A stretch of 56,760 nt of DNA, from contig JACDAL010000106.1 in the NCBI GenBank assembly GCA_013695465.1, positions 1 to 56,760 on the forward strand, in the 5' to 3' direction. Both the position numbers and the translations under genes were made by a program. Position 1 is the stretch's first letter, and every line of letters begins with the position of its first letter. The DNA comes from Actinomycetota bacterium (GTDB taxonomy: Bacteria; Actinomycetota; CADDZG01; WHSQ01). A model generated the notes under the pieces. The model was not told where the DNA came from and searched no databases. It saw nothing but the letters and a program-made list of their open reading frames with translations. Positions 6,022-39,012 of this stretch are shown one piece after another.

Positions 6022-6780
6022 TCAAATCGGCCTGCTCCAAGTGTCATCATACTCGACCGAAACCAAGCAGAGACCGTGTGGGGGGGCGACGGGGCCTGCC
6101 GTGACTCGGTCCCGGGCCTCGAGTACGCCCGCGGCTTCGTCCGGCCCCCGCTTTCCCTCCCCCACCTGAATGAGTGTGCCGACCAGCGAGCGAACCATCT
6201 GCTGGACGAAGGCGTTGGCGCGCGCCCGGATTCGAACGATAGAGCTGGAGCGTGAGCACGACAACTCGAACAGTGTCCTTTGAGCCGAAGCTCCTGCCGG
6301 AACACGCCCAAACGAACTGAAGTCGTGCTCGCCGATGAGATGGCCCGCCGCCTCGTTCATCGCGTCAAGTGAAAGCTCTTTCCGATGCCACAGAGCCGTT
6401 CTCGCCAGGAACGGATCAGGGACGTCCGACTGCAGGATGGCGTACACGTAGAGGCGAGAGCGAGCGCTGAAGCGTGCGCTGAACGCCGGGTCGGCTCGAT
6501 CGCAGGCACTCACGGCAATGCGGCCGCCGAGCGCAGAATTGAGGGCGGCCCTCAGCTTGTCGAGATCAGTCTCCTCGTCAACCTCGCGCACACTCATCAC
6601 TTGGCCGAGCGCATGCACACCGGCGTCGGTCCTGCCCGCGCCGGTTGATTCCAATTCCTGGGAGCGTAGCAGCCGGGACAACGCTGCGTCGATCTCTCCT
6701 TGCACCGTCGTAACCGACGACTGTGTGGCGAACCCATGAAAATAGGAGCCGTCGTAGGAGATGTCGAGACGAAGGTTCAG
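6022..6780 (-). CDS. truA: tRNA pseudouridine synthase A; start codon uncertain (CTG at 6780 or other)
   Basis: [15 protein letters not shown] motif; in-frame upstream codons give conserved [30 protein letters not shown]-terminus. Confidence 0.85.
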
Positions 6781-6785
6781 GTCAA

Positions 6786-6948
6786 GTGGCCCGTCGCGAA
6801 ATTAGCGCCAACATCGAGGGCGACACTGCGCGTCGAGGGCCAGGCGCGAGGAGTCGAGCGTACCTGGAAGGTACGTGAGCGACAAGAAACGCAGCCATCG
6901 GCCATGCAGGGCCGCTCGAATGTGACGATAATTTCCGCTACGGGGCAC
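6786..6948 (-). repeat. Long-hairpin intergenic element, copy 1 (rplQ-truA)
   Basis: Imperfect palindrome with ends GTGCCCCGTAGCGGAAATTATCG / GGCGCTAATTTCGCGACGGGCCAC and apex GTACCT-TCC-AGGTAC; shares blocks with copies at 13776 and 14558. Confidence 0.85.
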
Positions 6949-7485
6949 CTAAGTGGTCTCCTCGTCGCCGTCGTCGGCGACAGTTTCCTCTTCACTCGGC
7001 TCCGCCTGCTCGCTCGCAGTTGTCACCGCAGCTCCTTCGCCAGGCGCCCCGCCTCTCCTCCGTCCCGGCCGGCGCAGACGACGCCTGCCGGCCGCTTCGG
7101 TCTCGGCGGTGGCGGAGGAGCGCACAACCGCACCCTCCACTAGCTCGACGAACGCCATAGGGGCCCCGTCTCCTTGACGCGGCCCGATCTTGAGCATCCG
7201 TGTATAGCCGCCGTTTCGCTCCGTAAAGCGCGGCCCTATCTCTGCGAACAGCTTGTGCACGAGCTCTCGGTCCTCGATTGCCGACAAGACCTGGCGACGA
7301 TGATGAATACTGCCCTTCTTGGCCTTGGTTATCAAGTGTTCGGCATAGGGACGCAGCAACCTCGCTTTGGCCTCTGTGGTCTTCACCCGCTCGTGCTCGA
7401 ACAAGGAGCGGGCAAGGTTACGAAGCATCAGCCTCTGATGAGAGGGGTTGGATCCGAGTGCAGGTCCCTTTCTAGGCTGTGGCAT
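6949..7485 (-). CDS. rplQ: 50S ribosomal protein L17 with acidic C-terminal extension
   Basis: [41 protein letters not shown]. Confidence 0.95.
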
Positions 7486-7491
7486 AACGGT

Positions 7492-8433
7492 CTAGAACTC
7501 TTTCCGCTTTAGGGACAAGTCCAGCTCCTCGAGCTTGGCCTTGACCTCGTCGATCGACTTCTGGCCGAAGTTTCGGATCTCGAGCAGGTCCTCTTCAGAC
7601 TTCTGCAGCAGTTCGCCCACTGTCGTGACCCCCTCGCGCTTGAGACAGTTGTAGGAGCGCACGGTCAGGTCCAAATCCTCGATCGGCTGCGCCAGCACCC
7701 CCGAGACAACTTCCTCTTCTGGGTCCGGGCCCAGGACCAAGCCTCCCATGCCCTCACCCAGATTGGAGAACAGCTGGAACAGCTCCACCATGGTAGAGCC
7801 GGCAGATGACAACGCCTCCGCTGGAGTGATCGAGCCGTCGGACTCGACATCCAGAATAAGGCGGTCGTAGTTCGTCATTTGCTCGACACGCGTCGGCTCG
7901 ACGTCGTAGGTCACCCTCCGAATTGGAGAGAAAAGTGCATCGATGGGTATCGCCCCGATGGCTTCCTTGGGGGCGCTCGCCGCCGCTACATAACCCCTGC
8001 CCTGCTCGATCCGCAGCTCGGTTGAGAGACTTGCGTTCTTGTTGAGCGTTGCGATGTGATGTTTAGAGTTGAGGATCTCCACACCGGCTGGGAGCTGAAT
8101 GTCGCCCGCCGTTACCTCAGCGGGCCCGTTGACCCGCAGGTGAACCGTCGTGGGCTCGTCGTTCTCGCTGCGAATGACAAGCTCTTTCAGGTTCAGAACG
8201 ACGTCGGTGACATCCTCGGCCACACCTTCGATGGTCGAAAACTCGTGCAAGACGCCGTCGATCTTTAGCTGAGTCACTGCCGCCCCTGGGATGGACGAAA
8301 GCAGCGTACGACGCAGCGAGTTGCCCAGCGTGTAGCCGAAACCCGGCTCCAGCGGCTCGATGATGAATTTGCTTCGTTGTAATGAGATCTCTTCCTCAGA
8401 GACCTGCGGACGTTGGACGACCAACAGATTCAA
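7492..8433 (-). CDS. rpoA: DNA-directed RNA polymerase subunit alpha
   Basis: [30 protein letters not shown]-terminal [18 protein letters not shown]. Confidence 0.97.
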
Positions 8434-8468
8434 TTAAGCTCCTCTCCCGGCGAGCAAAGGGTTTGAAA

Positions 8469-9095
8469 TTACTTCGAGTAGTACTCGACGATGAGCTGCT
8501 CCTGCACCGGCGCATCGATCTGGTTGCGCTCCGGCAAGGCGCGCACTTCAACTGCCATTTCCCTCAGGTTCGAGGATAGCCAGTCGGGTATCACTCGTCC
8601 CTCCGCGTAGGAGGTGTTCTCGATGATCCGGCCGACATTGCGCGAACGGCCTCGAACACTCACGACGTCTCCGGGCTTCACTCGATACGACGCAACGTTG
8701 ACCTTGCGTTCGTTCACCTGGAAGTGGCCGTGGGACACAAGCTGCCGGCCCATGCCGCGGTTCATGGCGAACCCGGCCCGGTAGACAACGTTGTCGAGTC
8801 GAGACTCACAGATCCTCATGAGCACTTCGCCCGTGACTCCCTTCGACCGAGCGGCCTCACGGTAGTAGCTCCGGAACTGCTTCTCGAGCACTCCGTAGAA
8901 GCGTTTGGCCTTCTGCTTTTCACGTAGCTGAAGCAAATACTCGCTCTCTCGGACGCGCCCTCGGCCGTGTTCTCCAGGAGGTGGCCGGCCCTTCTCAATA
9001 GGGCACTTAGGAGACTCACATCGAGTCCCTTTCAAGAACAGCTTGGTCCTTTCACGCCGGCAAAGCCGGCACACAGGCCCGGTATAGCGCGCCAT
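8469..9095 (-). CDS. rpsD: 30S ribosomal protein S4
   Basis: [27 protein letters not shown]4 RNA-binding region GRQLVSHGHFQVNERKVNVASYRVKPGD. Confidence 0.97.
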   Translation of the reverse strand: MARYTGPVCRLCRRERTKLFLKGTRCESPKCPIEKGRPPPGEHGRGRVRESEYLLQLREKQKAKRFYGVLEKQFRSYYREAARSKGVTGEVLMRICESRLDNVVYRAGFAMNRGMGRQLVSHGHFQVNERKVNVASYRVKPGDVVSVRGRSRNVGRIIENTSYAEGRVIPDWLSSNLREMAVEVRALPERNQIDAPVQEQLIVEYYSK

Positions 9096-9490
9096 CAGAC
9101 TCGCCTCCTCTTTCGAGGCCGGCAGCCGTTGTGTGGAACGGGCGTAACGTCTTTGATGCCGATAACCTCCAGACCAGAAGCCTGCAGAGAGCGGATAGCG
9201 GTCTCCCGCCCCGAACCCGGTCCCTTAACCATCACGTCGACTCGCCGAACGCCGTGCTCCTGAGCACGGCGCGATGCCGCCTCGGCTGCCTGCTGTGCCG
9301 CGTAGGGAGTGGATTTGCGAGAGCCCTTGAAGCCCACGTTACCGGCAGATGCCCACGAAATAACGTTTCCCTCAGGATCGGTAATCGAGATGATTGTGTT
9401 GTTAAACGTGGACTTGATGTGTGCGACACCGTGAACGATGTTCTTCTTTTCCCTGCGGCGAGTCTTCCTAGCTCTGCGTGGACCGGCCAA
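9095..9490 (-). CDS. rpsK: 30S ribosomal protein S11
   Basis: [42 protein letters not shown]. Confidence 0.97.
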
Positions 9491-9528
9491 ACTGCTGTCC
9501 TTCCTTCTAGGTTTCTAGGAACTACGGG

Positions 9529-9906
9529 CTACTTCTTTGTCTTTTTCTTGCCGGCGACTGCCTTGCCGGGACCCTTGCGGGTGCGAGCGTTCGTATGGGT
9601 TCTCTGCCCATTCACGGGAAGTCCTCGGCGGTGCCGTAATCCTTGGTAGCAACCGATATCGATCTTGCGCTTGATGTTCTGGTTGATCTCGCGGCGGAGA
9701 TCTCCCTCGACCCCATAGTTATCTCCGATGAAATTGCGCAAGCGGACAACTTCTTCATCGGTCAAATCTCGCACTCGCGTTCCGGCATCCACCCCAGATC
9801 CACCGCAGGTTTCCTGTGCGCGGGTTGGCCCCACCCCAAAGATATAGGTCAAGGCGATATCGAGACGCTTGTCCCGAGGCAGGTCCACACCGGCGATTCG
9901 AGCCAT
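9529..9906 (-). CDS. rpsM: 30S ribosomal protein S13
   Basis: [50 protein letters not shown]. Confidence 0.97.
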
Positions 9907-9916
9907 TAAGGCCTCC

Positions 9917-10030
9917 TTATCCCTGTTTTTGCTTATGCCGGGGATTCGAGCAGATCACCATTACGTTCCCGCGCCTGCGAATAATCTTGCACTTGTCGCA
10001 GATTCTCTTGACGCTGGGATGAACTTTCAT
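9917..10030 (-). CDS. rpmJ: 50S ribosomal protein L36
   Basis: [37 protein letters not shown] inside a longer ORF. Confidence 0.97.
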
Positions 10031-10040
10031 CTTCTTGCTC

Positions 10041-10283
10041 CTATTTGTACCGGTAGACCACACGTCCGCGCGTGAGGTCGTAGGGGGACAGCTCCACCAG
10101 CACTCGATCTCCCGGCAGGATGCGGATGTAGTGCATGCGCATCTTCCCCGAAATGTGAGCCAAGACCTTGTGACCGTTGTCGAGCTCGACTCGGAACATG
10201 GCGTTGGGCAAGGTCTCATTGACCGTGCCCTCGATTTGGATGCCCTCTTCCTTCTGGGCGCCCTTCTCCTTGTTCTTCGCCAT
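10041..10283 (-). CDS. infA: translation initiation factor IF-1
   Basis: [47 protein letters not shown]. Confidence 0.97.
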
Positions 10284-10408
10284 GCGCGCGGTTCCTACTT
10301 TCATCGACTATCGTTTGATCCGGCCGGGGATGCGGACCGCACCGAGAGCGCGCGGAAAGTGCCCTGACCGACCTCTGAGAATAGCAGAAATTCGCTTCCT
10401 AGTCGAAT

Positions 10409-11164
10409 TCAACTTGAATCACGCCTGGTCAGGACCTCGTGACCCTCCTCGGTGATCGCCACGGTGTGCTCAAAATGAGCAGACAGCCCGCCGTCCGCCG
10501 TCACCACCGTCCAGCCGTCGTCGAGAGCTTTGGTGGCCGCCCCGCCGGCGTTGATCATGGGCTCGATTGCCAAAGTCATCCCCGCCCCCAGGATTTCCCG
10601 GCGACCCGGGGGACCGTAGTTGGGAATCTGTGGGTCTTCGTGCAGCGCGCGACCGACTCCATGACCCACGTACTCCCGCACCACGGAGAACCCCGCCTGG
10701 ATGGCAACCTGTTCGACGGCGTGGCCGACGTCGCCCAAGCGCCGACCCGGATAACACTGTTCGATGGCCGCATCGAGAGACCTCTCACCCGCTTCGAGCA
10801 ACCGCTCCGCGTCGTCAGATATTGCTCCCACAGGAAATGTCCAGGCGGAATCGGCGTGAAGACCCTGGTAGAAAGCCCCGACATCCAACGACACGACGTC
10901 GCCCTCCTGTAGTACGTGGTCTGAAGGGATCCCATGAACGATGACGTTGTTGGGCGAGGAGCAGATCGAACCGGGGAAACCCTTGTACCCCTTGAACGAG
11001 GGTTTTCCGCCGGACGAAACAATCGCGCTCTCCGCTATTGCATCGAGGTGGCGCGTGGTCACGCCCGGTCGCAGAGCCTCCTGAAGCCGCAGAAGCGTAT
11101 CGCTCACCATCACACCCGCCTTACGCATGATGACAAGCTCCTCGGGCGACTTCTTGTAAATCAT
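10409..11164 (-). CDS. map: type I methionine aminopeptidase
   Basis: CSSPNNVIVHGIPSDHVLQEGDVVSLDVGAFYQGLHADSA; YVGHGVGRALHEDPQIPNYG. Confidence 0.96.
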   Translation of the reverse strand: MIYKKSPEELVIMRKAGVMVSDTLLRLQEALRPGVTTRHLDAIAESAIVSSGGKPSFKGYKGFPGSICSSPNNVIVHGIPSDHVLQEGDVVSLDVGAFYQGLHADSAWTFPVGAISDDAERLLEAGERSLDAAIEQCYPGRRLGDVGHAVEQVAIQAGFSVVREYVGHGVGRALHEDPQIPNYGPPGRREILGAGMTLAIEPMINAGGAATKALDDGWTVVTADGGLSAHFEHTVAITEEGHEVLTRRDSS

Positions 11165-11790
11165 CTCAGGCTGTCCACGATGCGGGAGAAGACCTCGTCG
11201 GGGGATCCCATCCCATCTATCATGTGCAGCACGCCCTGGTAGTGGGACTTCAAGGGTTCGGTCTGATCATGATAGAGACGCAGCCGCTTCTTGACGTTCT
11301 CCGGAGCGTCGTCCGCACGCCTCTCGACCTGCCCCCCACAGCGGTCGCAAGTCCAGTCTTCCTCCGGCGGGGCGTCCTCATGGTAGTTGCGGCCGCAGTT
11401 CGAGCACACTCTTCGCCCCACGATCCTTTGCAGGGACACTTCTTCCGGCACCTCCAGCGCGAGTACCGCTTCGATCTCGGCCGAGTGTTCGGCAAGCACC
11501 TTGTCAAGAGAATCGGCCTGCGAGATATTACGCGGAAACCCGTCGAGCAGGAAGTCATCGAAATTCTTCGCCTCCAGACGCTCGCTTACCACCGCCAAGG
11601 TCACATCATCGGGTACCAATTTGCCCTCGTCCACGAATTCCTTCGCCTTAATTCCCACGTCGGTCTTCTCGGAGATGGCCCAACGAAACATGTCTCCGGT
11701 GGCGATCGCGTCGAGGCCGAATTCCTCGGCAACGCGCCTCCCTTGCGTTCCTTTGCCTGCCCCTTGAGGGCCAAAGATAAGAAGTCGCAT
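11161..11790 (-). CDS. adk: adenylate kinase with Cys4 lid
   Basis: MRLLIFGPQGAGKGTQGRRVAEEFG; CSNCG...CDRCGG lid. Confidence 0.97.
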   Translation of the reverse strand: MRLLIFGPQGAGKGTQGRRVAEEFGLDAIATGDMFRWAISEKTDVGIKAKEFVDEGKLVPDDVTLAVVSERLEAKNFDDFLLDGFPRNISQADSLDKVLAEHSAEIEAVLALEVPEEVSLQRIVGRRVCSNCGRNYHEDAPPEEDWTCDRCGGQVERRADDAPENVKKRLRLYHDQTEPLKSHYQGVLHMIDGMGSPDEVFSRIVDSLR

Positions 11791-11838
11791 AGGTCTTGTG
11801 CCCCCGCCTAGCCTATGGACCCGTTAGATGATGCTGCA

Positions 11839-13134
11839 TTATCTCAAGAACCCTTCGTAGTGCCTCATCATCAGTTGAGATTCGATCTGCTTCATCGTTT
11901 CGAGCGCCACGCCCACCGTGATCAGGATCGACGTTCCTCCGAAGGGAAGCGCCTGCAGCCCAAAGGCGCGCAATGCAATTGATGGAAGCAAGGCGATCGC
12001 AGCAATGAACAGAGCGCCTGGAAGGGTGATTCGAGTGAGGATTCGATCGAGATGCTCGGCCGTCTGCCGACCCGGACGGATGCCGGGAATGAATCCACCG
12101 TACTTTTTCATGTTGTCCGCAACATCCATCGGGTTGAAGCTGATAGCGGTGTAGAAGTAGGCGAAGAACACCACCATCGTGCCGTATAGGATCATGTACA
12201 CGAAGCTGCTCGAGTTGACGAGATGGTTTGTGATGAAGTCCTGAATCACGTCCACCTGCACCACGTTTTGCAGAAGGCTGGGGATGTAGAGGACACTCGA
12301 TGCGAAGATGATCGGGATCACACCGGCCTGGTTCACCTTCAGGGGGATGTAGGTCGACTGCCCCCCCATCTGGCGCCGGCCGACAATCCGCTTGGCGTAC
12401 TGAACGGCAATCCTTCTTTGGCCCTGCTCCATCATGACGATCGCAAGAATGATCCCGATACCCATCAGCACGATCACGCTGAACAGTACAGGTCCGCCCT
12501 GATCGAGAATTGCCTTCCCCTCGCTGGGGAGAGTCGACACAATCGACGCGAAGATCAAAATTGACATGCCGTTACCGATGCCTCGTTGGGTGATGAGCTC
12601 ACCGAGCCACATGATCAGCGCCGTACCGGCCGTCAGAGACATGACGATGAGCCCTACTCGCGGTCCCGAGAAACGAGGTATGAGATCGATCGGCTGCCCT
12701 CCCGGCCCCTGAATCTGCCCGCTGTGAAACAAGAACGCCAGCCCGGTCGACTGCAAAATTGCCAGTAACACAGTTAGATAACGGGTCCACTGCGTGATCT
12801 TCTTGTAGCCGGCCTCGCCTTCCTTGGACCATGCCTCGAGCTTGGGAATCACGGCCGTCAAGAGCTGCATGATGATGGACGATGTGATGTAGGGCATGAT
12901 TCCCAGGGCGAAGATCGCCATCTGGGTCAGCGCGCCGCCCGAAAACAGATTGATGAAGTCGAATACCCCGCCTTGTGCTCCTCTGGCGAAGGCTTGTGCG
13001 GCTTGGACGTCGATGCCCGGTGTAGGGACGTGGGCGCCAAACCGATACACCCCAATGATCAGCAGAGTGAACAGGATCTTCTTGCGTAGGTCGGGAACTT
13101 TGAAAGCATTGACGAAGGCTCCAAGCAGGTTCAT
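11839..13134 (-). CDS. secY: preprotein translocase subunit SecY
   Basis: Multi-TM protein, GVYRFGAHVPTPGID, GFIPGIRPGRQTAEHLDRILTRIT. Confidence 0.97.
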   Translation of the reverse strand: MNLLGAFVNAFKVPDLRKKILFTLLIIGVYRFGAHVPTPGIDVQAAQAFARGAQGGVFDFINLFSGGALTQMAIFALGIMPYITSSIIMQLLTAVIPKLEAWSKEGEAGYKKITQWTRYLTVLLAILQSTGLAFLFHSGQIQGPGGQPIDLIPRFSGPRVGLIVMSLTAGTALIMWLGELITQRGIGNGMSILIFASIVSTLPSEGKAILDQGGPVLFSVIVLMGIGIILAIVMMEQGQRRIAVQYAKRIVGRRQMGGQSTYIPLKVNQAGVIPIIFASSVLYIPSLLQNVVQVDVIQDFITNHLVNSSSFVYMILYGTMVVFFAYFYTAISFNPMDVADNMKKYGGFIPGIRPGRQTAEHLDRILTRITLPGALFIAAIALLPSIALRAFGLQALPFGGTSILITVGVALETMKQIESQLMMRHYEGFLR

Positions 13135-13137
13135 TCG

Positions 13138-13587
13138 TCAGGACCTCCCACGCGCGACGATCTCGACCTTGCCTCCGGCCGCCTCGATCTTCTGCCTGGC
13201 TGCAGCGCTGAAGGCGTGCGCCTTAACCGTCACGGCCCGATCGATATCTCCCTGGCCCAGGACCTTGATGATCCTGTCTCGCTTGCGGACCAGCCCGGTC
13301 ACCCTGAGCTCGGCCGGTCCGATCTCAGACGACTCGATCCGGGCCAGCTCGGAGACGTTGACCGCCCCGTAGGCGACGCGGTTGATGGGTTTGAACCCTT
13401 TGCGCTTGGGCAGTCGGCGCACGAGTGGCATCTGGCCGCCCTCAAAAAACAGAGGCACACTGCCGCGCGCCCGGGTACCCTTACTTCCGCGACCTGCGGT
13501 TTTTCCGCGGCCCGATCCTTCTCCGCGACCGACCCGCCTGCGCGCTCTACGAGCCCCCTGTGGTGGCTTCAGCTCGTGCAGTTTCAT
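13138..13587 (-). CDS. rplO: 50S ribosomal protein L15
   Basis: MKLHELKPPQGARRARRRVGRGEGSGRGKTAGRGSKGTRAR. Confidence 0.96.
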   Translation of the reverse strand: MKLHELKPPQGARRARRRVGRGEGSGRGKTAGRGSKGTRARGSVPLFFEGGQMPLVRRLPKRKGFKPINRVAYGAVNVSELARIESSEIGPAELRVTGLVRKRDRIIKVLGQGDIDRAVTVKAHAFSAAARQKIEAAGGKVEIVARGRS

Positions 13588-13772
13588 ATCTCCTCGATCT
13601 CCTCAACCGTCACTAGATGCTCCACGGCCTTGATCATGCCCCTAATCTCGGGCTTGTCTTCGTGAACCACGCTGTGGCCGATGCGCCTGATGCCGAGAGC
13701 ACGCAAGGTCCCGCGCTGCCGCGCCCCTCGGTCCAGGGCGGAGCGCACTTGCACCACCTTGAGCCTGATCAT
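13584..13772 (-). CDS. rpmD: 50S ribosomal protein L30
   Basis: IRLKVVQVRSALDRGARQRGTLRALGIRRIGHSVVHED. Confidence 0.94.
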   Translation of the reverse strand: MIRLKVVQVRSALDRGARQRGTLRALGIRRIGHSVVHEDKPEIRGMIKAVEHLVTVEEIEEI

Positions 13773-13775
13773 CTG

Positions 13776-13972
13776 GTGCTCCGAACCGGAAATACGGCGT
13801 GAACCGAGAGGGTCACTGCGCCCCCGATTGAATCCCGATCCCGACCTCGGCGGAGCCGTTTCGCCAGGCGCGAAGAGCGCTGCGTACCTGGAAGGGAGGT
13901 GAGCGACGAAGTAACGCCGCTAGCGGGGATGCAGAGGCGCTCGAATGCCACCGGATTTCGGGCGAGGTGCAC
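13776..13972 (-). repeat. Long-hairpin intergenic element, copy 3 (rpsE-rpmD)
   Basis: Ends GTGCACCTCGCCCGAAATCCGG / CCGTATTTCCGGTTCGGAGCAC; shares GTCGCTCAC..CCTTCCAGGTACGC and GGCTCCGCCGAGGTCGGGATCGGGATTC blocks with the other copies. Confidence 0.85.
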
Positions 13973-14539
13973 TCAGGAAGCCGATGATCCGGCGGGACTT
14001 GCGCCGCGCAGCAGGTACGGGGGGGCGACTTCCTCGGGGAGCTTGCCTCTCTTGCGAGCGATCTCCTCCGCAGTCTTGATTCCCTGCAGCGCCTTAACGG
14101 TAGCGTGCACGATATTGATGGGGTTGCTCGAACCAAGCGATTTCGAGAGTATGTCCCGGATCCCGGCGCACTCGACGACGGCGCGCACGGGACCTCCCGC
14201 GATTACTCCGGTTCCCGGAGAAGCTGGCTTCAAAAGAACAACGGCGGCCGAGTCCTCGCTGATTATTTCATGGATGATCGTTTTACCAATCATGGGAACC
14301 GTGAAGAAGTTCTGCTTCGCTTCCTCGATGCCTTTCTGGATCGCAGCCGGAACCTCCCGTGCCTTGCCATAACCGACGCCGACGCGGCCGGCTCCATCCC
14401 CCACTACCACCAGCGCAGTGAAGGAGAACCGGCGGCCGCCTTTGACCACCTTGGCAACTCGGTTGATCGAGACAACGCGCTCCTCGTACTGGTTGCGATC
14501 GTCGTCCCTTTGGGAACGACCTCCCGAACCTCTTGCCAT
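13973..14539 (-). CDS. rpsE: 30S ribosomal protein S5
   Basis: [50 protein letters not shown]. Confidence 0.97.
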
Positions 14540-14557
14540 TAGCTTTCTCTCCTCCTA

Positions 14558-14737
14558 GTGGTACGTCGCGAAAGTAGCGCGAGTATCAAGGGCGATCCTG
14601 CGCACCAATTTGAATTCCGATTCCGACCTCGGCGGATAAGAATCCCAATTCCGACCTCGGCGGAGCCGTGCCGTGAAACGCAGCCATCGGTGATGCAGGG
14701 CACGACGAATGTGCCGATGATTCCCGTGCAAGGGCAC
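14558..14737 (-). repeat. Long-hairpin intergenic element, copy 2 (rplR-rpsE)
   Basis: Shares CACATTCG..GCCCTGCAT..CCGATGGCTGCGTTTC and GCGCTACTTTCGCGACG with copy 1; contains two tandem CCGCCGAGGTCGGAAT modules. Confidence 0.85.
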
Positions 14738-38064: not shown

Positions 38065-39012
38065 CTAGAGCTTGGCTACCTGGTCGAAGGACAGCTCGAC
38101 CGGGGTCTCTCGACCGAAGATGTTGACCAGCACCTTGAGCTTTGACTGATCTACGTTGATCTCAGAGATCGTGCCAGTGAAGTTGGCAAAGGGCCCGGAG
38201 ATAACTCGCACACTCTCCTGCTCTTCGAACTCGAGGCGAGGGCGAAGCTTCTTCTTGTCCTGAGGCTTCACCTGCAGAATGCGATCGACCTCGCGATCGG
38301 ACAGAGACGTGGGCTTGGCGCCGGAGCCGACGAACCCGGTAACCCCGGGGGTGTTGCGAACCACATACCAGGAGTCATCGTCGAGATACATACGGCACAG
38401 GAGGTAGCCGGGAAACACCTTCTTCTGCACGATCTGCTTCTTGCCCTGCTTGATCTCCATGACGTCTTCCATCGGGATGACGACCTCGAAGATGCGGTCC
38501 TCGACGTTCATCGAGGAGATACGTGACTGCAGGTTTGCCTTGACCCTGTTCTCGTAGCCCGCATAGGTGTGAACGACGAACCAGTCGCCCGGCCTCTCAT
38601 TGGGCGGGATCGAAGCCTCGTACTCCTCGAGCTCGGAGTCGCCCTCATCGGAGGACGTGGCCTCGGTTGGCGCCTTCGGGGCGCGGGTCTTCTTCTTCCG
38701 GGATTCGGTTGGAGGAGCCTCGGTCGGGGCCGGAGCATCGGGTGCCTGGGCCTCGGTCGGTGCCTGGGCATCGGGTGCCTGGGCCTCGGTCGGTGCCGGA
38801 GCATCGGGTGCTTGGGCCTCGGTCGGTGCCTGGGCCTCGGGTGCCTGGGCATCGGGTGCTTGGGCATCGGGTGCTTGGGCATCGGGTGCTTGGGCCTCGG
38901 GTGCCTGGGGTGCCTCGGGGTTTGGGGCCTCCTCAGTCAGCAGGACGCCCGGTTCCTTCCCCTCGGGGGTCGCCTGACCTTGCTCCCCGACTTCGGCTCC
39001 CCGCTCGCTCAT
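38065..39012 (-). CDS. nusG: Transcription termination/antitermination protein NusG with ~150-aa repetitive N-terminal extension
   Basis: [23 protein letters not shown]...[31 protein letters not shown]...KOW region; N-terminal [10 protein letters not shown] repeats. Confidence 0.96.
38718..38923 (-). repeat. In-frame degenerate 15-30 bp tandem repeats encoding (P)(T)[15 protein letters not shown]
   Basis: Repeating units ggtgcctgggc(c/a)tcgg(gtc). Confidence 0.9.

Follow-up and report, generated by a model that had tools for sequence, protein, structure and literature searches.

Probable IS630-type miniature elements with a maintained hairpin, some holding a nested 28-33-bp repeat, in the ribosomal operons of an Actinomycetota bacterium

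The RUP of Streptococcus pneumoniae, a miniature inverted-repeat transposable element (MITE) of IS630-Spn1, is about 107 bp long, intergenic and geneless, uses a TA target, has IS630-like ends and is dispersed in about 108 copies (PMC2229807). Correia/NEMIS and ERIC are likewise miniature elements flanked by TA, with inverted repeats and transcripts that form stem-loops, and NEMIS exists in forms of 107 and 155 bp that differ by an internal 50-bp sequence (PMC2229807). The subject of the present analysis is a set of three related hairpin elements in the spc/alpha ribosomal operons of an Actinomycetota bacterium, contained in a stretch of 56,760 bp (contig JACDAL010000106.1, positions 1 to 56,760, hereafter the window). 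Like RUP, these elements and their relatives are intergenic and dispersed, contain no gene, use a TA target and have IS630-like ends. However, whereas the inverted repeats of RUP are 9 bp long and no functional motif has been reported in it, the whole 162 bp of the present elements is a hairpin with covarying pairs, and they further differ from RUP in their near-fixed length, in a strand-specific excess of G-U pairs found across several families and in their placement at stop codons. The likeness to Correia/NEMIS and ERIC is one of description, and the hosts differ. We consider it likely that all three copies are MITEs of the IS630/Tc1-mariner type, non-autonomous and moved in trans, that their maintained hairpin is probably constrained as RNA on the reverse strand, and that some members of the family were later invaded by a separate 28-33-bp repeat. 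A literature search that covered few subscription journals found no description of this element family.

All three elements are on the minus strand, and the positions given for them in the initial annotation, in the gaps rplQ-truA, rpsE-rpmD and rplR-rpsE, were borne out. Copy 1 (6786..6948, 163 bp, subfamily A) is intact, lies directly 3' of the rplQ stop codon TAG (6949-6951) and stops short of truA. Copy 2 (13776..13972, 197 bp, subfamily B) starts immediately 3' of the rpsE stop codon (TGA, 13973-13975), reaches almost to the rpmD start (ATG, 13770-13772) and contains a single 32-bp unit of the nested repeat (13828..13859, minus strand). Its right arm contributes a Shine-Dalgarno-like GGAG (13779-13782) at Shine-Dalgarno distance from the rpmD start, a spacing that suggests it may act as the rpmD ribosome site. 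Copy 3 (14558..14737, 180 bp, subfamily A) lies between rplR and rpsE with the flanks CTA-GTG...CAC-TAG, so placed that the last base of the rplR stop codon TAG is the first G of the element, and a self-nested pair of units (14610..14674, minus strand; ACGGC [ACGGCTCCGCCGAGGTCGGAATTGGGATTCTTA] TCCGCCGAGGTCGGAATCGGAATTCAA) stands in place of the usual apical hairpin. As the annotation had read it, the fold of copy 1 is a single long hairpin (-75.1 kcal/mol, z -4.8). The fold of copy 2 is weaker (z -1.35), and that of copy 3 is no better than its shuffles (z 0.02) because repeat units replace its apical hairpin. A covariance model built from 40 canonical copies (R1) recognises all three, with E-values of 5.5e-36 for copy 1, which was in the training set, and of 3.7e-11 and 1.9e-6 for copies 2 and 3, both of which were outside it.

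The elements belong to a large family. The genome of the window (G000) is a 2.55-Mb metagenome-assembled genome (MAG) of 186 contigs, and searching it with copies 1, 2 and 3 gave 23, 35 and 56 matching pieces respectively, which, together with short forms found by their ends, collapse to about 37 places. Three subfamilies are distinguished by arm sequence: A (copies 1 and 3), B (copy 2) and C. The annotation had noted arms that differ between copies but still pair within each copy, and this holds at the level of the subfamilies. Relatives were found with a DNA query in 11 of 16 genomes of the same family and with R1 in 15 of 24 genomes of the class, representing two families; the model also matched 13 of 120 genomes sampled across the phylum Actinomycetota, including three genomes of one family (f24) with 15, 19 and 24 copies. 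The closest named kin are Actinomycetota MAGs such as JACCZU010000162.1. Across the family the elements measure about 40-300 bp, with neither a transposase gene nor a coding signal inside, and a length of exactly 162 bp is found in 28 of 37 full copies outside G000, as well as in most copies of two genomes of another family (G127 and G107) and of the f3 genomes. This length is kept even where the arms are unalignable, for example between G002 and G011. Shorter forms keep the ends and have lost the hairpin centre; they include 95-bp forms in two genera (G000 C182:200-294 and G012 C153:4415-4509) and 54-62-bp forms in G000 (C142:7684, C143:17628, C142:27155 and C185:56947). Known RNA families and extrachromosomal sources were also considered and rejected: in the window only tRNAs reach the Rfam gathering score, with no match up to E = 1 for two of the copies, and blastn of copy 1 found no match in either the phage or the plasmid collection, while no viral contig has the 26-nt core of the nested unit.

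The ends of the elements point to IS630. The annotation had given them as GTGC(C/A)C ... (G/C)CAC; the elements are real, and their termini are better described as GTG...CAC between CTA and TAG, the pattern obtained by mapping 73 copies, in which a TA is duplicated inside CTAG. This full combination of flanks is the commonest (17 of 73 copies) and is what insertion of an IS630/Tc1-mariner element, with its TA duplication (PMC2170065), would be expected to leave. TA is present on both sides in 24 of the 73 and on one side in many more, and terminal inverted repeats are present, with the terminal helix paired in 94.8% of cells. Genes for IS630-family transposases (PF13358) occur in 7 of 16 family genomes, G000 included, and most IS630-family elements with recognisable ends also show CTA-GTG...CAC-TAG. 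When both ends were scored jointly against a background of 4000 random 22-mers starting with GTG, the ends of four of the five IS630 elements with both ends known resembled those of the hairpin elements (p = 0.003 in G000, 0.0014 in G014, <5e-5 in G004 and 1.5e-4 in G002); in the same joint test the ends of the fifth, in G015 (L306), gave no match. The ends, the duplication of TA within CTAG and this resemblance all back the suggestion of a MITE made in the annotation, and we infer from them that a transposase partner acted in trans. One site offers a comparison of filled and empty states, namely the rpsE-rpmD gap, which in G014 holds an element reversed relative to copy 2 and in its congener G008 is uninterrupted. 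This gap is short in 14 of 15 relatives and the rplR-rpsE gap in 15 of 15. In G015 (L139), G011 (L141) and G012 (L145), moreover, rpmD (L30) was not found in the interval from rpsE to rplO, and rplO there follows rpsE by about 60-70 bp.

The insertion sites are concentrated at stop codons. Of 66 testable copies, 53 (80%) are no more than 3 nt away from the stop codon that closes an open reading frame of at least 100 codons; the corresponding share is 3.6% for positions drawn at random from the same loci and 43% for other CTAG sites. The excess over random positions is due partly to CTAG being a common stop-codon context and partly to preference or survival. Since insertion in CTAG keeps TAG whole on both sides, the stop codon is preserved, and insertion at stop codons without breakage of a gene explains how the elements could enter even ribosomal operons. 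On the far side of copy 1, the N-terminus of truA (near 6770) has no ATG, GTG or TTG ahead of the conserved YDG motif, and its first conserved codon is CTG, as in the relative L166; the start of truA in the window may be CTG. The idea that copy 1 had damaged this start was rejected, as L166 likewise opens CTG AAC CTT.

The interior of the elements is conserved as a paired structure. In the alignment of 40 copies the predicted pairs are standard in 95.4% of cells and 19 of 31 pairs have changed on both sides; none of 500 shuffles reached the observed level, and when the structure is shifted by 1-3 columns the share of paired cells is 20-53%. A second set of 33 sequences from four families, dereplicated below 88% identity, gave double changes in 54 of 63 pairs (shuffles at most 43) and pairing in 87.5% of cells (shuffles at most 71.5%). 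This covariation, together with the strand asymmetry described below, supports the structured intergenic RNA proposed in the annotation as the alternative to a MITE, and with the roughly 37 places in G000 it shows that further copies and conserved pairing of the arms both exist.

The mismatches indicate which strand carries the constraint. The reverse strand, that is, the complement of the strand quoted for the elements and the plus strand of the window, antisense to the ribosomal operon, is the better-folding strand in 71 of 72 copies, and its advantage exceeds that expected from composition in 19 of 20 copies tested. When folds were made with G-U forbidden and single mismatches flanked by Watson-Crick pairs were counted, the helices contained, read on the reverse strand, 128 G-U and 17 A-C; folding of the forward strand gave the same asymmetry (129 vs 21), counting distinct sites per clade gave 72 and 13 where base composition predicts about 1:1, and a pair set identical for both strands gave 48 and 11. 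On the reverse strand T (14.4%) is less frequent than A (19.5%), which argues against a simple C-to-T mutational bias there. A constraint at the RNA level on the reverse strand is thus likely, and it implies that the hairpin would be transcribed from that strand.

The same asymmetry could arise from selection on the forward strand, where a weak hairpin in the host mRNA, with A-C there and G-U on the opposite strand, would limit harm within operons and the reverse RNA would be inert. The orientation of the elements fits this explanation as well, in that elements more often lie with the forward, weaker strand in the reading direction of the upstream gene in the pooled data (40 vs 19, p 0.009), though less clearly in the first set alone (28 vs 17, p 0.14). 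However, the forward strand still folds far better than its shuffles, and weakening alone leaves unexplained why the sequence of the purine-rich apical loops of the reverse strand is conserved across families. We therefore regard forward-strand selection as unlikely, while keeping it in view.

We hold it rather improbable that the elements are ordinary IS630 MITEs in which the palindrome is a relic or acts at the DNA level, by transposase binding or as a cruciform, and in which RNA has no role. The arms do pair best at the termini, the ends do match IS630 ends, and any palindrome folds on both strands. Yet such a palindrome predicts equal numbers of G-U and A-C mismatches, unlike the counts given above for all mismatches, for sites per clade and for the strand-neutral pairs, and the apical sequence and the exact length persist where the arms are unalignable. 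Some observations nonetheless weigh against an IS630-type element with an RNA-constrained hairpin. In the alignments A2 and A3, the pairs common to both ribosum-derived structures show a near-even 54 G-U and 45 A-C, as a DNA-level palindrome would have it, so that the magnitude of the strand effect varies with the choice of pairs. Related copies do not count as independent observations, and the covariation test on the 40 copies ignores their relatedness. A clean duplication of TA, found for the family and for copy 3, is missing in many elements, copies 1 and 2 among them. Finally, no PF13358 match was found in G012, G008 and similar genomes that bear the elements, these MAGs being incomplete.

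That the elements are regulatory RNAs acting in cis and specific to ribosomal operons, such as attenuators or binding sites of ribosomal proteins, was suggested by the occurrence of three copies within 8 kb of the spc/alpha operons. We judge this very improbable: the places in G000 are spread genome-wide beside unrelated genes, the only filled gap among the relatives holds an element in reverse, and the absence of orthologous elements from these gaps in most sister species already disfavours it. A small protein encoded by a 54-codon frame (162 = 3 x 54, with a GTG start overlapping the upstream stop) is hardly credible and was rejected, for although 40 of 48 canonical copies have no stop in forward frame 0, against 33% expected from shuffles, the three codon positions have taken up substitutions evenly (1487/1554/1442) and the other frames show amino-acid identity at least as high.

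Under the preferred explanation, that of MITEs moved in trans, an IS630-family transposase would recognise the GTG...CAC ends and insert the element at the TA of CTAG or of a CTAG-like site, mostly in a gene's stop codon, whose TAG would be restored by the leading G of the element. Between the ends a conserved hairpin of near-fixed length, 162 bp, would be kept with its base pairing maintained, probably constrained as RNA on the reverse strand. In G000, some copies would later have been invaded by the 28-33-bp repeat, which would also have inserted into itself and, alone, at two unrelated gene ends.

This repeat had been listed among the blocks shared by the three copies. The copies are indeed a family, but the block GGCTCCGCCGAGG / GGCTCCGCCGAGGTCGGAATYGGGATTC is an independent repeat of 28-33 bp and not part of the hairpin, and GGCTCCGCCGAGGTCGGAATYGGGATTC occurs only in copies 2 and 3. 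The 29-nt core of the unit was found at 30 places in G000, 20 of them perfect, and the reversed control at none; the unit was found in none of 15 family genomes and, allowing at most 3 mismatches, in none of 396 other Actinomycetota genomes. Within the hairpins it occupies several positions, adjoining TCG or TCCG, and hairpins that lack it have uninterrupted sequence there. Five arrays look self-nested: repeats of the 5-nt prefix ACGGC stand at their left and repeats of the 28-nt remainder at their right. Four of them have as many prefixes as units (2/2 in copy 3, then 3/3, 2/2 and 2/2), the outcome to be expected were every incoming unit to land between the ACGGC and the TCCG of one already present; the fifth array (G000:C92:3933-4124, L026) breaks this count with four ACGGC prefixes and two 28-nt units. 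Two further arrays are plain head-to-tail, and two solo units (C45 and C50) lie outside any hairpin, one at the end of an AAA+ ATPase gene and the other between metG and tatD, gene names that come from reading of the translations only. Other inserts and repeats were also seen: a 54-bp insert after CCCCTGCATC that produces 216-bp hairpin forms in two species of one genus (G014:C167, L296, and G008:C189, L297), a 30-bp insert in G015, and in-phase direct repeats of 33 and 15 bp of the GGTGCCTGGGCATCG type at 38693-38931 of the window, which are probably a repetitive coding segment.

The repeats most similar in behaviour to the 28-33-bp unit are reportedly the small dispersed repeat (SDR) families of cyanobacteria treated by Elhai et al. 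in 2008, which are said to be 21-27 nt long, often inside minitransposons and in some cases nested in themselves. For one of them, SDR5, insertion occurs at a single defined point within HIP1 (PMC4390886). The likeness is one of behaviour; unlike the SDRs, the present unit has another sequence, is slightly longer, belongs to an actinomycete host and is placed before TC(C)G. BrickBuilt of Porphyromonas gingivalis is also a MITE that holds short tandem units, in that case a 23-nt head-to-tail minisatellite (PMC4596501), whereas the present units occur at several sites, inside each other and also alone outside MITEs. Slippage or recombination between hairpins could explain some of the arrays but not the solo copies. 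A tentative explanation, which we put forward as possible rather than probable, is that the 33-bp unit is itself mobile, with a fixed left end (ACGGC), and enters before TC(C)G, repeatedly into itself and independently of the IS630-type hairpin, possibly via an RNA copy. Such a unit would rank with the smallest mobile elements known, and its kind would not previously have been seen beyond the cyanobacteria.

As a kind, the hairpin elements are a variant of known MITEs, and they merit further attention for their fixed length, for being conserved in more than one family, for the asymmetry between strands and for the unit that nests in itself. For MITEs in general, the interior is taken to drift as long as the ends are preserved. 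That length, pairing and apex have been kept across several families, with a strand-specific signature, suggests that in these elements the interior has a role, which could be tested on well over 100 copies. The self-nesting 33-bp unit, for its part, may allow insertion events to be counted in a class of very small mobile repeats.

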